Of a DNA stretch of 27,353 nucleotides, positions 15,344-26,192 are shown piece after piece. This DNA comes from a virus: positions 1 to 27,353 of the IMG/VR virus record IMGVR_UViG_3300042477_000580. One strand, 5' to 3'. The notes under the pieces were generated by a model, which ran no database searches, had not been told where the DNA came from, and was given only the letters and a program-made list of their open reading frames with translations. Numbering within the stretch: position 1 is the stretch's first letter; each line of letters opens with the position of its first letter. Position numbers and translations under genes: made by a program.

Positions 15344-15679
15344 TTATATCTTTATATATAAATTACTAAGCCAGATTGATACTAGCCCAGTGTTCTTTCC
15401 TTTTATCCATAAATCCATCTTTGTTACAAGTCCATCTGATGATTCAAATCTAACAAAGTATTCTCCTAGCTCAGTAGCTCTTCTGCTGCCTCTTCTTATA
15501 GACTCACTATAGATATCCTTCATATCTATGAATGCTTTTCCATGTTTAACCTCTTTAATTCCACAAGATATAGGCAAACCTACCCTATTGAATATAGTTA
15601 TCCCTGCCTTCTTAATATAATCTATATTAACCTCTTTAATACATCTTAACATATATAATTTATATATCTTTCTTCTCAA
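15344..15679 (-). CDS. Hypothetical protein, first gene of the minus-strand block (111 aa)
   Basis: The protein begins MRRKIYKLYMLRCIKEVNID; a later start at MLRCIKEV (residue 10) is also possible. It is basic in the first half, with ESIRRGSRRATELGEYFVRF at about 60-79, and ends in hydrophobic WLSNLYIKI. No family is recognised. It is the promoter-proximal gene of the left block and lies after about 300 bases of structured untranslated sequence. Confidence 0.6.
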   Translation of the reverse strand: MRRKIYKLYMLRCIKEVNIDYIKKAGITIFNRVGLPISCGIKEVKHGKAFIDMKDIYSESIRRGSRRATELGEYFVRFESSDGLVTKMDLWIKGKNTGLVSIWLSNLYIKI

Positions 15680-15689
15680 TTAAACATAA

Positions 15690-15995
15690 TTCACCCCTTG
15701 TCGCCGGACCATATTTCGGCATGGTTTATAGAGTTGTTCATTATTATGTCTGTACGTCGGCTATGCCTTTGCATTGCTTACACCCATCAGCTTATCTCAA
15801 TCTCCCCTTATTATTCACACATTCTATATCAAATATATAGCAGTGAACCGCTGCACATAACTCTTACTTAAAACCTTTTGACTCTGCCGGAGAAAACATA
15901 TTATCTAGTATGTAAATGCGATAATACCAATCCGACGTCTAACCATTTAAACTTTCGCCCTTATGGTGGTCAGCCCCAGGTGGGTGCCGAAGTCA
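15690..15995 (-). ncRNA. Structured untranslated leader or ncRNA ahead of the minus-strand block
   Basis: No gene fits on either strand. Read on the minus strand from the putative promoter at 15995-16018, the segment holds a long-range 7-bp pairing (ACGTCGG with CCGACGT), a 6-bp hairpin CTATAT/ATATAG, a small hairpin GCAG/CTGC, and near its 3' end interleaved CCAT/ATGG and GCCG/CGGC pairings that would make an H-type pseudoknot (about 15701-15725). It would be transcribed as the 5' leader of the 111-aa gene or as a separate RNA. Structure was drawn by eye. Confidence 0.5.
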
Positions 15996-16018
15996 TTATA
16001 CTATAACGTATATAATTT
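15995..16018 (-). promoter_or_regulatory. Putative late promoter element, copy 4 (TATACGTTATAGTATA)
   Basis: The minus-strand sequence ATTATATACGTTATAGTATA heads the structured leader of the left block. It shares TATACGTT and the following TATA with three other elements placed before minus-strand genes, making this the likely main promoter of the block. Confidence 0.55.
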
Positions 16019-16127
16019 TATTTTGTTTACATGATGTTGAGAAAAAATAGCAAAAAAATGCATTATTTTTAAAAAAATATTAAAAAAAGTGATGAAATAG
16101 TAAAATTTTTGGGAAAAATATTTTTCG
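16019..16127. other. A/T-tract-rich segment in the divergence region
   Basis: About 110 bases with almost no G or C, made of runs of A on the plus strand and T on the minus strand. Such a tract next to repeats and palindromes at the point where the two gene blocks diverge could be an UP element, a bent or easily melted region, or part of a replication origin. A minus-strand open frame across it is low-complexity and not credible as a gene. Confidence 0.45.
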
Positions 16128-16209
16128 AACAGTATGCCCAGGCTTGTGCAAAGGTAAAAAAATTTAGTATAATAATTTTTAAACAGCATATCCATGCTTA
16201 CACAAAGGT
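16128..16209 (-). repeat. Two degenerate 28-bp direct repeats
   Basis: Units at 16128-16155 and 16182-16209 match at 21 of 28 positions and six of the seven differences are transitions; they are 54 bases apart start to start. On the minus strand each begins ACCTTTG and carries CTGTT about 17 bases on. The shared ACCTTTG could be the TTTG box of a Bacteroides-type promoter, or the units could be operator or origin iterons. They point toward the left block. Confidence 0.5.
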
Positions 16210-16269
16210 GTCTTAAATCAATCCCCCTGGCTAAAAACTCGCGCCAAGTACCCCCGGTGGGTAGATACC

Positions 16270-16540
16270 TCAAGCATTATCTCTTGGCCGTCGGAAGACT
16301 CAACCGATACTGATAATGTTGACTGATGTGAATCAGACATACAATCCTCTATTATCTATGTAGTTAGTACATGTTGTTTAGACATAGCCAAGGAATGGGT
16401 TAGGAGACCTGTTGCATGGAACACTACATAGCTTACCATTGTATTGTATATACACACTAAGTATGAGGCACGAATACGTGGCTCTCCGCAGGGCGGAGCG
16501 GGGAGGTGGGTATAGACAGTTAATAACTGTTATGATATAA
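16270..16540. ncRNA. Structured non-coding segment, strand unclear
   Basis: No credible gene lies here. Visible pairings are CATTAT/ATAATG enclosing TCGG/CCGA, CTGAT/ATCAG, an 8-bp long-range CTATGTAG/CTACATAG, a GC-rich hairpin CTCCGC/GCGGAG at about 16484-16498, and a perfect 7+1+7 palindrome ACAGTTAATAACTGT at 16516-16530 that could be an operator. Inverted repeats read the same on both strands, so direction cannot be fixed; an ATACGTTATG element near 16607-16616 on the minus strand would allow minus-strand transcription. Confidence 0.4.
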
Positions 16541-16580
16541 GAATATGTCATTGGCAGTATGCCTATTAAGATAATTGGCC
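16541..16580 (+). promoter_or_regulatory. 40-bp repeat A, probable promoter or control element
   Basis: Starts GAATATGTCATTG and ends ATAATTGGC. It matches repeat B (16827-16866) at about 31 of 40 positions. The two blocks most conserved are 17-18 bases apart, like the two boxes of a promoter. A is followed by a structured RNA-like segment, B by the first plus-strand gene. Confidence 0.5.
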
Positions 16581-16826
16581 TGCACGTAAGGCGGGGTAGA
16601 GACATAACGTATCTTGAAACTCTACAAATTCATGTTAAACTCAGCTAAAGGTTGGCCTCAACCTGCACATTATAGTGCGAATTAAGTGGCATTGAAAGCT
16701 CATATACAGATGAGTGTGTGTAGGTCACACCTGCCTACCATTGGACGTCCAATGAAAACAGTTATTGTGAAAGCCAGTGAATACTGACGGTGAAAGCCCG
16801 TAATCTTTTTCTCTTTAATAAGAGAA
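16581..16826 (+). ncRNA. Structured RNA between repeats A and B
   Basis: About 240 non-coding bases with consecutive hairpins: GCCT/AGGC, GTAGAG/CTCTAC (16596-16625), AGGTT/AACCT, GCAC/GTGC, CTCAT/ATGAG, AGGT/ACCT, a perfect 16-base palindrome CATTGGACGTCCAATG (16739-16754), CAGT/ACTG and ACGG/CCGT. The short phrase TGAAAGC recurs three times, each before or inside a hairpin. The last hairpin is followed by AATCTTTTTCTC, a weak terminator-like end near 16812. A promoter-like repeat before it and a T-run after suggest a discrete small RNA. Confidence 0.5.
16739..16754. repeat. Perfect 16-base palindrome
   Basis: CATTGGACGTCCAATG equals its own reverse complement. With no unpaired centre it is a poor RNA hairpin but a good binding site for a dimeric repressor. 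It lies about 80 bases before promoter-like repeat B. Confidence 0.5.
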
Positions 16827-16866
16827 GAATATGTCATTGTTAGGTCGCCTTTCAATATAATTGGCA
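16827..16866 (+). promoter_or_regulatory. 40-bp repeat B, probable promoter of the first plus-strand gene
   Basis: GAATATGTCATTG, then 17 less conserved bases, then ATATAATTGGC. The second box ends 27 bases before the lipoprotein ATG. A third partial copy, AGAATATGTCTTTG, is at 17660-17673 before the 158-aa gene. Recurrence ahead of early genes makes a phage-specific or host-type promoter likely. Confidence 0.55.
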
Positions 16867-16893
16867 ATTCAGCCAAATTAAATCATTATCAAG

Positions 16894-19182: not shown

Positions 19183-19194
19183 ATTCACTATTTC

Positions 19195-19890
19195 AACTAA
19201 GTCCAACCTATATGGTTGGCCTATTAATGCAGCAGTTAAGTCACAAGCCTTAACACTTCTAGCTTTTGGAGGCGGGAATTATGCAGAGTGGTAGAGAATA
19301 ACTGGTTTATGTCAAACGTACTGTAATCCAACCACAGTCAGCCACTTCCTCGTGGTAGAAGAAATTAATAGCTCGCAAGGCTATTTGAGTTGGAGCTATA
19401 CACACATATTATCGTTTCTATGTGTGGAGGATATAGTTTTTAGATAACGAACGGGTTAGTCTAGCTCGTTAATAAATCCCATTGCAGCAGGGATGGGCAA
19501 CGCTGCAAATTAATCCTACACCGGGAACGCTGGAAATAGGTGAGTTCAATACCAGCATAAAAATAATCAGAACTATCGGTACGTAATCGGGTATATAACG
19601 GGAGGAAAGGGACATTCGAGAGCCCAGCCAACTGTCCTTATACTGACGAGATTACCAGTTGCTCCCAGTATTAGTCTTCGTGATTAATAAAACTGCCACA
19701 ATCTAAGACCTCTAAACCTTGTAACGGGAATAGGAAGAGGTCGCATTAATGTAGCCACAGCAATGTGAGAGTCCAAAGCCTCTATAAATACAGATGGATG
19801 CACTATTTTCTATGATACAACGCATCATATGGTTGCACAGAGTTCGTTAAAACGCGCATGCTTAATAATTACGATATCATAGATTAAAGT
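19195..19890 (+). ncRNA. Large ornate structured RNA with apparent pseudoknots (about 700 nt)
   Basis: No gene fits in about 740 bases. Perfect stems along it are CCAACC/GGTTGG (19203-19219), AATAGC/GCTATT, CACACATA/TATGTGTG (19401-19426), TAACGA/TCGTTA, GGGAG/CTCCC (19600-19666) stacked on CAACTG/CAGTTG (19629-19661), GACCTCT/AGAGGTC (19707-19742), CACA/TGTG and TATGAT/ATCATA. At 19476-19508 ATCCC/GGGAT and TTGCAGC/GCTGCAA interleave as an H-type pseudoknot. CCTA/TAGG with GCTGG/CCAGC (about 19515-19556) would make another. Size and style recall giant phage ncRNAs such as GOLLD and ROOL, but I cannot align it to either. Confidence 0.65.
19476..19508 (+). other. H-type pseudoknot
   Basis: Stem 1 is ATCCC (19476-19480) with GGGAT (19490-19494). 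Stem 2 is TTGCAGC (19482-19488, in the loop of stem 1) with GCTGCAA (19502-19508). All 12 pairs are Watson-Crick. Confidence 0.65.
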
Positions 19891-19905
19891 GTAGTATATA
19901 AATAA

Positions 19906-19921
19906 TATTAATCAATAATAA
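19906..19921 (+). repeat. TATTAATCAATAATAA leader, copy 3
   Basis: Identical to copies 1 and 2, ending 8 bases before the ATG at 19930 and directly after the large RNA region. Confidence 0.7.
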
Positions 19922-19929
19922 TAAATATC

Positions 19930-20157
19930 ATGGACAAAGGAATTAGTCATTTATTTTTAATTGCAATAGCAATATTATCTTTTGTAATAATTCTTGGATA
20001 CGCAAGTCGCAAGCCAGGAGCAGATGCAGCAGCAGAGCTAGCCATACCTATTATATGTATGATAGCAGTGTTAGGTCTTTTTGAATACTTCGGAAGAGCC
20101 GGAGATGAGAAAGAAAGCGATGATGAAGATTTGGACCCTAATATGACAGGAAGATGA
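19930..20157 (+). CDS. Small membrane protein with acidic tail (75 aa)
   Basis: There are two hydrophobic helices, about residues 5-24 (ISHLFLIAIAILSFVIILGY) and 36-55 (AELAIPIICMIAVLGLFEYF), then a cytoplasmic-type acidic tail (GDEKESDDEDLDPN). No family is recognised. Its TGA overlaps the ATG of the following lipoprotein gene (ATGA), so the two are translationally coupled and probably act together at the envelope. Confidence 0.75.
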   Translation: MDKGISHLFLIAIAILSFVIILGYASRKPGADAAAELAIPIICMIAVLGLFEYFGRAGDEKESDDEDLDPNMTGR

Positions 20158-22488: not shown

Positions 22489-22630
22489 TGGTAGTAAGAA
22501 AATAAAATACCACAAGGACGACTCAAAAAGCAAGCGGCAAAAATATCGTGTATGCAAGAAGAGCGTGCTTGTGGTTGTAAATTCCCCTGACGAGTCTTTG
22601 AAAATTAAGACGAAACTATTTATAGCCGGG
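22489..22630 (+). ncRNA. Structured non-coding segment
   Basis: An 8-bp perfect stem, ACCACAAG (22509-22516) with CTTGTGGT (22568-22575), encloses about 50 bases with GCAAG/CTTGC-like inner pairing. GACTC/GAGTC and TGGTA/TACCA are alternative outer pairings. A frame runs across it, but its only start is GTG at 22565 and it overlaps a better gene, so I read the segment as RNA. It ends at TTATAGCCGGGAAAC, a phrase nearly repeated at 23609. Confidence 0.5.
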
Positions 22631-23009: not shown

Positions 23010-23695
23010 GAGTTCTCTACAAGGGATTTATCCCAAAATCACATGTTAATGCAAGTAGCAGCGTTCTCAATCCTGAGCTACTGTTTAAAAGCGTAGACAT
23101 TAATTGCCTTATGGTAATTGGTATCAGTTCTTAAGCAAGTGGGAAATGAGTGTCTTGTGATTATTGTACATGATGCAGGGGTTATCATACCTTAAAGCTC
23201 TAATCACGGTTTTTCGTCCGTAAAACGAGTGCTATCGCTAAAGTAAGGCGTATTATTCTTAGAAAAGAGCATGCTGCGGTCAATCGCGTAGTGAGCCCAC
23301 AAAGCTGATTGGTTAAGAACCCGTACGGAATCGTTATCTGTCCATATAGACAAGAACTATATGGCCCTTGGAAGCAGGTCTCTTCGGAGTCGAAAGGGAT
23401 GGTACGTGAGAATCGTATTAAACTTCATGATTGGTTAAGAACTGCTACCTGTCAGTGATTAGGCAACTGTCATTTCCTATTCGAATAGGTTGGCTAATTA
23501 GAGAGGAGTTGGAGAGGAAGTGGTGTCTCGAAAGGATCGAGATAAGTATTTAAATAGCCTTGTGAAATACAAGCAATAAATAGGCGCAAGTGTCCTCTAT
23601 TTATTCCCGTTATAGCCGGAAATCTTGAGCCATACATATCCAAAGCGAGCAATATCCCTATGGGGACGCCTAAAATAGATATGTATGGCTTAATC
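23010..23695 (+). ncRNA. Second large ornate structured RNA (about 690 nt)
   Basis: No credible gene lies here on either strand. Perfect stems follow one another: GGGA/TCCC, AGTAGC/GCTACT, ATTGCC/GGTAAT, CCATATAG/CTATATGG (23342-23364), CTC-TTCG-GAG, CCTAT/ATAGG, TCTCGA/TCGAGA (23526-23542), CTTGT/ACAAG, AATAAATAG/CTATTTATT (23575-23605), and a 13-bp stem AGCCATACATATC/GATATGTATGGCT (23628-23690) just before the next gene. A 15-base direct repeat TGATTGGTTAAGAAC occurs at 23306 and 23428, each containing GGTT-AAG-AACC or its start. The density of stems and UUCG loops points to a folded RNA rather than spacer. Confidence 0.65.
23306..23442 (+). repeat. 15-bp direct repeat TGATTGGTTAAGAAC
   Basis: Exact copies at 23306-23320 and 23428-23442, 122 bases apart, inside the second large RNA. 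Each is followed by a different sequence, so it is a repeated structural module rather than a larger duplication. Confidence 0.7.
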
Positions 23696-24833: not shown

Positions 24834-24905
24834 GGCCCTATCGTCTATCGGTTAGGACAATAGACCTTCAGTCTAAGAAGCGGGGTTCGATTCCTCGTGG
24901 GGCTA
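24834..24905 (+). tRNA. tRNA-Glu (anticodon TTC), with unusual C33
   Basis: The cloverleaf is complete. Acceptor GGCCCTA pairs with TGGGGCT (one G-U at 1-72, one T-G); the D-stem is GTCT/GGAC; the T-stem CGGGG/CCTCG has loop TTCGATT; the discriminator is A at 24905. CCA is not encoded. The anticodon stem is TAGA/TCTA after an A-A mismatch, with the loop CCTTCAG, giving anticodon TTC for Glu. Position 33, almost always T, is C, and C32 can pair with G38. The gene would supplement decoding of GAA codons, common in this AT-rich phage. Confidence 0.85.
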
Positions 24906-25064: not shown

Positions 25065-25481
25065 ATGAAAAAAATATCAGTATCAGACCTAAAAGGAGGT
25101 GAGACAATAAGTGTGACAGGGGCGAGAAACAATGGTCTAAAAGATGGAATATATACTGTTAAATCAGTAAATAATCAGTACGCAACGGCATCAGATGAAT
25201 TCGGAATGGTGTGGACAATCAATCAAGGAACAAATATATCTCTTTACGAATGGGTAGATTTAGTCAAGGTAAAGGAAGATGAACTAGAGAAATTAAATGC
25301 CAAGGTAAAGTTAATTCAAAGTCAGATTGACAAATACAAGAAGTATTCGTCAGAAGAAGAATATACTGCTTCTAAGCTAGTTCAAATATTGTCAACAAAC
25401 AACAAAGATATTTCAGATATTCAAAAAATAGAAGAAATAACAAAGATATTAAAAAGCAGTTCAGAAACAAGCCTGCTTTAA
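25065..25481 (+). CDS. Hypothetical protein with N-terminal beta domain and C-terminal coiled coil (138 aa)
   Basis: Residues 1-65 look like a small beta barrel (GETISVTGARNNGLKDGIYT, then FGMVWTINQGTNISLYEW). Residues 70-138 are charged helices with heptad-like spacing (KEDELEKLNAKVKLIQSQID). The leader is A-rich without Shine-Dalgarno sequence. It lies alone between the terminator and the next large RNA. No family is recognised. Confidence 0.75.
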   Translation: MKKISVSDLKGGETISVTGARNNGLKDGIYTVKSVNNQYATASDEFGMVWTINQGTNISLYEWVDLVKVKEDELEKLNAKVKLIQSQIDKYKKYSSEEEYTASKLVQILSTNNKDISDIQKIEEITKILKSSSETSLL

Positions 25482-25860
25482 AATAAATCAATTTCAGATT
25501 GAAGCAATAGATAATTAAGGACGAAAAATCTAAGAATAGCCTCTTCACTTAAGTGTGAATGTAGCTTAGTGATATAATTATCAATCACATGCAGGTGATT
25601 AGTTTGTTAGATGTAAATATGTAAAAAGAGCGTGAAATAGTTTGTAGAGATTGCAATCGTAATACTAATCGAGCCACGTCCTCCCATGTGGAGAAAACTA
25701 CGTACAAATATTTATTCCACTGCAAGGACTGAAATTGACTTATACAGTATGATACTAACTGCAAATAAGAGTCAAAAATTAAAGCAATGATGCAAGCGCA
25801 AATCTTAATCTTCTATTAATGATAGGTGATAGTAAATTAGTCTTCATTGCTTTAACCAAA
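25482..25860 (+). ncRNA. Third large structured RNA region, first part
   Basis: Non-coding. Pairings include TTCAC/GTGAA, AATCAC-ATGCAG-GTGATT (25583-25600), CCACGT/ATGTGG (25674-25691, one G-U), and a 12-bp perfect stem TTAAAGCAATGA/TCATTGCTTTAA (25779-25855) that encloses TTAAT/ATTAA. It runs directly into the tRNA-like elements at 25862 and 25952, so all may be one precursor transcript. Confidence 0.55.
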
Positions 25861-25861
25861 C

Positions 25862-25943
25862 GCCACTACTTATTGGGATGATAGCCCTAATAAGGAACCG
25901 GAAACCAGAAATGGACTGATGAGTTCGAATCTCTAAAGTGGCA
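25862..25943 (+). ncRNA. Possible tRNA-like RNA (82 nt), non-canonical
   Basis: GCCACT pairs with AGTGGC at the ends and is followed by A, like an acceptor and discriminator. A canonical T-loop sequence TTCGAAT lies 8 bases before the 3' strand, but its stem is only GAG/CTC. In place of D- and anticodon arms there is one long arm (CTTATT-GGG with CCC-T-AATAAG) with the 7-nt loop ATGATAG, which has T at position 2 and would read GAT as anticodon. A CCA-GAAA-TGG hairpin follows. The fold does not match a normal tRNA, so treat it as a structured RNA with tRNA-like ends. Confidence 0.4.
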
Positions 25944-25951
25944 CAAAATAC

Positions 25952-26153
25952 GGGGATAGAGTGAAATGGATGGGGAAATCTATGCCTAAGGCCGAGAACA
26001 GATGATAACTGTTCGCCGACTTGCAAGACTAGGCATACCCTAATCACGTAATCTCACCTGAATGCAAATAAACATAATTGGATTTCGAAAAGCAATTGTA
26101 GATATAGGCATTAAAGAAGATTAAAATAGCTAGTTCGACTCTGGCTATCCCCA
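25952..26153 (+). ncRNA. Expanded tRNA-like RNA (202 nt)
   Basis: The ends form a perfect 7-bp acceptor, GGGGATA (25952-25958) with TATCCCC (26146-26152), and discriminator A. The T-arm is good: GCTAG-TTCGACT-CTGGC (26129-26145). GA then GTGA (25961-25964) pairs with TCAC (26054-26057) as a D-stem, but its loop holds about 90 bases with TATGCCTA/TAGGCATA enclosing GAACAG-ATGATAA-CTGTTC. AATGC/GCATT (26061-26112) would be the anticodon stem, with about 42 bases inside including AATTG/CAATT. The GGGGATA start followed shortly by GTGAAAT resembles tRNA-Leu, but the expansions exclude a normal tRNA. Confidence 0.55.
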
Positions 26154-26192
26154 CAATTAAAATAGTTAAAAACAACAAATTCTGTAATCAAT

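Follow-up and report, generated by a model that had tools for sequence, protein, structure and literature searches.

Two predicted twister ribozymes bracket a large noncoding RNA region with a probable pseudoknot in a crAss-like phage

The large phage RNAs GOLLD and ROOL build RNA-only cages (PMC12286853). The twister ribozyme cleaves at a U-A step beside its stem P1 and needs two pseudoknots, T1 and T2 (PMC5408937). No precedent for a pair of twisters bracketing a large RNA was found in the literature searched. Here we analyzed a viral DNA of 27,353 nucleotides (IMG/VR record IMGVR_UViG_3300042477_000580, referred to below as the window) in which an initial annotation had singled out one noncoding region for its pseudoknots. 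Two twisters, which that annotation lacked, bracket the same region and are more telling of the identity of the RNA than the pseudoknots.

The window belongs to a crAss-like phage, with the major head protein, portal and large terminase encoded on the minus strand in its left half. The terminase is 55-63% identical to those of many crAss-like phages (top match cr118_1, 63%) and three IMG/VR contigs carry a terminase which is 100% identical to it. Small rightward genes begin at about 16.9 kb, with several noncoding gaps of unusual size between them. The gap bearing the pseudoknots (19183-19930), within the rightward operon, has no ORF of at least 80 aa, and the G+C content of its RNA is about 0.42, against 0.27-0.35 in the flanking genes.

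Further large, apparently structured noncoding gaps were observed in the same operon at 16260-16880, 23010-23660 and 25480-26160. The stretch 15631-16235, which adjoins the first of these on its left, is 61-67% conserved in contigs G002, G011 and G014, and parts of the last are conserved in loci L005 and L011. Two sets of tRNA-like ends were seen, GGGGATAG...GCTAGTTCGACTCTGGCTATCCCCAC at 25953-26152 (200 nt apart) and GCCACT...GAGTTCGAATCTCTAAAGTGGC at 25875-25945, neither of them called by ARAGORN or Rfam; L005 and L011 hold pieces related to them. ARAGORN called only a tRNA-Glu at 24834, and no Rfam tRNA or tmRNA model matched the pseudoknot-bearing locus at permissive thresholds. A hammerhead-like core (CCUGACGAG..CGAAAC, Rfam 22.8 bits) at 22569-22621 resembles the type-I hammerheads of cr272_1 and cr273_1 (L187 4985-5035, L188 ~4320); it has GCC at the expected GUC-like cleavage triplet and is possibly inactive. 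A ATTAATCAATAATA box recurs directly upstream of gene starts (18555, 18790, 19910, 22640, 24485 and 26940) and was also found in related phages.

The 3' twister (Table 1) was detected with Rfam at a permissive threshold, with E-values for RF03160 of 1.6e-10 over 1.4 kb and 1.3e-9 over 11.8 kb. Its score is below the curated gathering cut-off of 67.2, as are those of all scored relatives, and the same twister is present at 86% identity in intergenic regions of the crAss-like phages cr7_1 and cr124_1. For the 5' twister the curated covariance models returned only a Twister-P5 fragment of 25 nt that does not rise above noise (15.7 bits, E 2.7), because an insert, which occupies the position of the optional stem P5 between P4 and P2, breaks the model. 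Both elements contain P1, P2, P4, the conserved L1 and L4 and the T1 pseudoknot. When stems P1, P2 and P4, the conserved loops and T1 were required simultaneously, this pattern was found at 12 distinct places in the 3.9 Mb examined, all of them twister-bearing loci in or beside phage intergenic regions. Random sequence matching the window in dinucleotide composition gave one hit in 645 Mb, and none with an insert of at most 40 nt. T1 is compensatory among relatives (CCA/TGG, CAC/GTG, CGT/ACG). In the alignment TAA-TG-AGC and GTC..AAGCC are invariant, and the 5' twister keeps its L4 GTCNNAAGCC, the GC of L2, all three stems and T1. We are highly confident that both twisters are real. Insert-bearing variants escape the current models, so more twister brackets may exist.

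Table 1. RNA elements of the pseudoknot-bearing gap, numbered from the first letter of the window
Feature	Positions	Strand	Elements	Basis
5' twister, 29-nt insert	19221-19294	+	By eye CTAT-TAA-TGCA-GC-AG-TTAA-GTCACAAGCC-TTAA-insert-TGCA-GA-GTG-GTAG; P1 CTAT 19221-19224/GTAG 19291-19294; P2 TGCA 19228-19231/TGCA 19282-19285; L2 GC 19232-19233; P4 TTAA 19236-19239/TTAA 19250-19253, enclosing GTCACAAGCC 19240-19249; T1 CAC 19242-19244/GTG 19288-19290; predicted cut between U19225 and A19226	Pattern, alignment, Rfam Twister-P5 fragment
Predicted released RNA, 522 nt	19226-19747	+	Ends A19226 and U19747	Deduced from the two twister cuts
Hairpin directly 5' of PK1	19454-19472	+	ACGGGTT..AGCTCGT	Minimum-free-energy and centroid folds
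PK1	19476-19508	+	S1 ATCCC 19476-19480/GGGAT 19490-19494, interleaved with S2 TTGCAGC 19482-19488/GCTGCAA 19502-19508; loops 1, 1 and 7 nt	5 + 7 perfect pairs
PK2 candidate	19515-19556	+	CCTA 19515-19518/TAGG 19537-19540 with GCTGG 19529-19533/CCAGC 19552-19556; loops 10, 3 and 11	4 + 5 pairs; not significant
Closing hairpin, directly 5' of 3' twister	19707-19742	+	GACCTCT...AGAGGTC	Folding
3' twister, type P1	19743-19801	+	P1 GCAT/ATGC; P2 TGTA/TACA; L4 GTCCAAAGCC 19771-19780; T1 CCA 19773-19775/TGG 19795-19797; predicted cut between U19747 and A19748	Rfam RF03160, 52.5 bits, full model

Both PK1 and PK2 fall between the two predicted cuts. During transcription of the operon each twister would cut at its U-A step to give a single RNA bearing a 5' hydroxyl and a 2',3'-cyclic phosphate, in which the 5' twister body is followed by a folded core that includes PK1 and by the 3' end GCAUU>p, while the downstream mRNA would keep the body of the 3' twister as a leader. 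We infer cleavage and release from the sequence, and consider it likely that the RNA would be released in this way. A fold of the whole RNA (717 nt) was mildly better than shuffles (z -1.93, 20 shuffles). The ends of the predicted product, 5' AAUGC... and ...GCAUU 3', are perfectly complementary over 5 bp, and a host ligase of the RtcB type could join them when paired. A search of 12 related phages gave no RtcB, and the matched ends may be accidental since the released ends of the GOLLD RNA of a second phage (see below) are not complementary; a circular RNA is a possibility and not our main claim.

The initial annotation described PK1 and PK2 as back-to-back H-type pseudoknots marking a compact, tertiary-folded core, and inspection of the sequence found all four of its helices exactly in place. 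A 12-pair pseudoknot had also been thought improbable by chance. When the 559-nt RNA region was dinucleotide-shuffled 3000 times, 31 of the shuffles (about 1%) had a compact H-type pseudoknot with 12 or more Watson-Crick pairs, in keeping with that judgement; the whole window holds two such pseudoknots on the plus and one on the minus strand, which makes the weight of PK1 moderate at that scale. The loop lengths of PK1 give good, classical H-type geometry. Stacking amounts to -9.6 kcal/mol for S1 and -13.5 kcal/mol for S2, whereas these 33 nt reach -8.9 kcal/mol in their best nested fold, so that PK1 remains favoured when 9-10 kcal/mol is charged as a pseudoknot penalty. For PK2, at least one pseudoknot of its size was present in 83% of shuffles of the region and, when the 62 nt located 3' of PK1 were shuffled, in 5.8% of cases; PK2 is thus not significant by itself and the back-to-back arrangement is not supported beyond chance. 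Nested folding of 19430-19600 was ordinary (z -0.73). Generic loop-complement counts in these RNAs were indistinguishable from those of shuffles, indicating that general kissing or pseudoknot potential is not enriched and that only PK1 and a 7-mer contact shared with the phage described next stand out. As it is both rare in shuffles and energetically favoured, PK1 is credible where PK2 alone is not, and we think that it probably forms. What stands of the proposed core is a large structured RNA with PK1, on the strength of shuffles, energy and the counterpart described next; PK2 is no better than chance.

An IMG/VR search with the 3' twister gave eight stretches, one of which (L174) is from contig G025 (IMGVR_UViG_3300021254_000026), a crAss-like phage by its terminase (E 2.4e-66), whose gene has in-frame TAG codons. 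G025 carries three successive twisters, at 33.9, 42.7 and 52.9 bits, spaced 1.24 and 0.86 kb apart. Between the second and the third lie about 770 nt of noncoding sequence, which Rfam identifies as a GOLLD RNA (RF02032 over the whole model, 86.6 bits, E 7.7e-22), and the same kind of ribozyme therefore brackets a known giant RNA. In the retrieved locus the twister-bracketed GOLLD spans L182 4334-5251, with the remaining twister and a RAGATH-1 hammerhead (64.1 bits) upstream.

Upstream of the second G025 twister (L182 4178-4230) the RNA contains TTGCAG flanked by CACATCTG and CAGGTGTG, then CTGCAA flanked by ATCAGTG and CACTGAT, which form two strong hairpins whose six-base loops are fully complementary (kissing hairpins). 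The contact TTGCAGC/GCTGCAA is letter-identical to that of PK1, and the flanking stem is rewritten on both sides (CACATCTG/CAGGTGTG in G025 versus ATCCC/GGGAT in PK1). Among the loci examined the motif TTGCAGC..GCTGCAA was present at only two others. With 5 short-range complementary 7-mer pairs in the window RNA and 16 in the G025 RNA, the estimated chance of one shared pair is about 0.5-1%, without the further demand that the two be located in a hairpin loop; the similarity of the two whole RNAs was not significant, with 7% of shuffles scoring as high. The second strand in G025 is inside its own hairpin loop and the contact there is consequently a kissing pair and not an H-type pseudoknot, so that the topology differs, loop-loop in G025 and loop-tail in the window. 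A homologue with either helix broken and uncompensated was to count against the original proposal, and no such break was seen in this lone candidate, a thin sample of one. The counterpart is suggestive at the sequence level, not decisive. Most likely PK1 is a real tertiary element, H-type in the window RNA and loop-loop in its G025 counterpart.

Blastn searches of 50,697 phage records and of the relatives matched the twister alone and gave no homologue of the RNA body. IMG/VR pattern searches from PK2 and from the 5' twister gave no match, and searches with neighbouring proteins no useful relative; RNase H and terminase anchors did yield relatives. The near-identical contig G009 is without 10.9-20.7 kb of the window and hence does not cover the RNA locus, and the syntenic G002 and G017 keep the neighbouring genes with the RNA absent. 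With no homologue of the body found, covariation of PK1 rests on the one G025 candidate. In contig G004 two twisters lie about 0.8 kb from each other, and the interval holds a 53-codon ORF besides about 600 nt of noncoding sequence. In cr7_1, cr124_1 and G006 a different RNA, which ends in a tRNA-like fold, begins with a twister whose insert is longer, and in most other relatives the twister merely precedes a gene. The structure closing the twister-led RNA of these three is GTGGTTA...CGGTTCGAGTCC..TAACCAC (L002 5380-5490; L107 3500-3640, minus strand). Homology of the window RNA to this RNA was rejected, as the long alignment held in the twister part only. The annotated tmRNA of cr7_1 (L002 10860-11216) also matched the permuted-tmRNA model (66.4 bits), and the Oafivirinae phages (L187, L188, L002) carry many intergenic copies of small hairpins with GGAAAGAC/GGAATAGAC loops and of a TTCGTGAGAATAG hairpin.

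By analogy with the bracketed GOLLD, we somewhat favour the reading that the window RNA is a free-standing structural RNA of the phage, released by ribozymes and made during infection. The twisters might instead merely tidy the polycistronic mRNA between genes, the intervening stretch being a discarded leader or spacer whose structure is incidental. Relatives of the window phage without the RNA would agree with this, as would the twister located just 5' of an ORF, with no large RNA before it, in cr7_1, cr124_1, G005, G006, G007, G024 and G026. This explanation is nevertheless unlikely, given that the G025 pair encloses a recognizable GOLLD, that PK1 goes beyond chance and that the RNA is richer in G+C than the genes on either side. 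It is much less probable that the window RNA is a highly diverged GOLLD, ROOL or other named giant RNA. The twister-bracketed layout is shared with G025, as is a location 11-12 kb beyond the terminase, and the hairpin at 19369-19387, AATAGCTCGCAAGGCTATT, is similar to the GOLLD consensus ggcuCGCAAggcc; against this, even with E allowed up to 10 RF02032 did not match the window where G025, the positive control, scored 86.6 bits, and among all Rfam families, ROOL and OLE included, only the twister rose above noise at the locus at permissive thresholds.

It seems improbable to us that PK1 is accidental and the intergenic stretch around it ordinary. The 1% frequency within the RNA, the second compact 12-bp pseudoknot on the plus strand of the window and a competing hairpin CCCAT/ATGGG speak for chance, but the energy is clearly on the side of PK1 and the 7-bp contact recurs identically in G025 with its flanking stem rewritten. 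A cis-acting role of the pseudoknot, in frameshifting or in the control of translation, would fit the classical geometry and is scarcely credible here: no ORF of at least 80 aa crosses PK1, no slippery heptamer was seen by eye just 5' of it, and the next gene start is more than 400 nt away, beyond a twister. Frameshifting was rejected as a reading.

If the window RNA is indeed a released, stable structural RNA, a function like that of GOLLD or ROOL, as scaffold, cage or decoy, may be put forward tentatively by analogy with the G025 GOLLD. The twister bracket would be a simple, protein-free maturation route for phage giant RNAs with termini predicted to the base, and it is seen around the unclassified RNA of the window and around GOLLD in a second crAss-like phage. 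More speculative, and rather doubtful, is the idea that maturation defines a new class of giant phage RNAs, in which large structured RNAs including GOLLD would be released by twisters and in some the complementary ends (AAUGC/GCAUU) would hold the 5'-OH and the cyclic phosphate together for ligation into a circle.

Among known RNAs, the RAGATH-1 hammerhead is a self-cleaving motif of the same noncoding regions in related phages (L002, L182, L187); it is a different ribozyme and had no match at the window RNA locus. With type P1 twisters (RF03160) both window elements share P1, P2, P4, the UAA of L1, the GC of L2, L4 GUCNNAAGCC and T1, and they differ in scoring below the Rfam cut-off and, for the 5' element, in the 29-nt insert. 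GOLLD, of which many examples exceed 800 nt (PMC12286853) as compared with 522 nt predicted here, is likewise a large phage noncoding RNA in the same type of genome neighbourhood, and in G025 it is flanked on both sides by the same twister. ROOL is close in size (ROOL env-120, 659 nt), is phage-borne and combines intramolecular pseudoknots with kissing loops (PMC12286853), features which the window RNA resembles.
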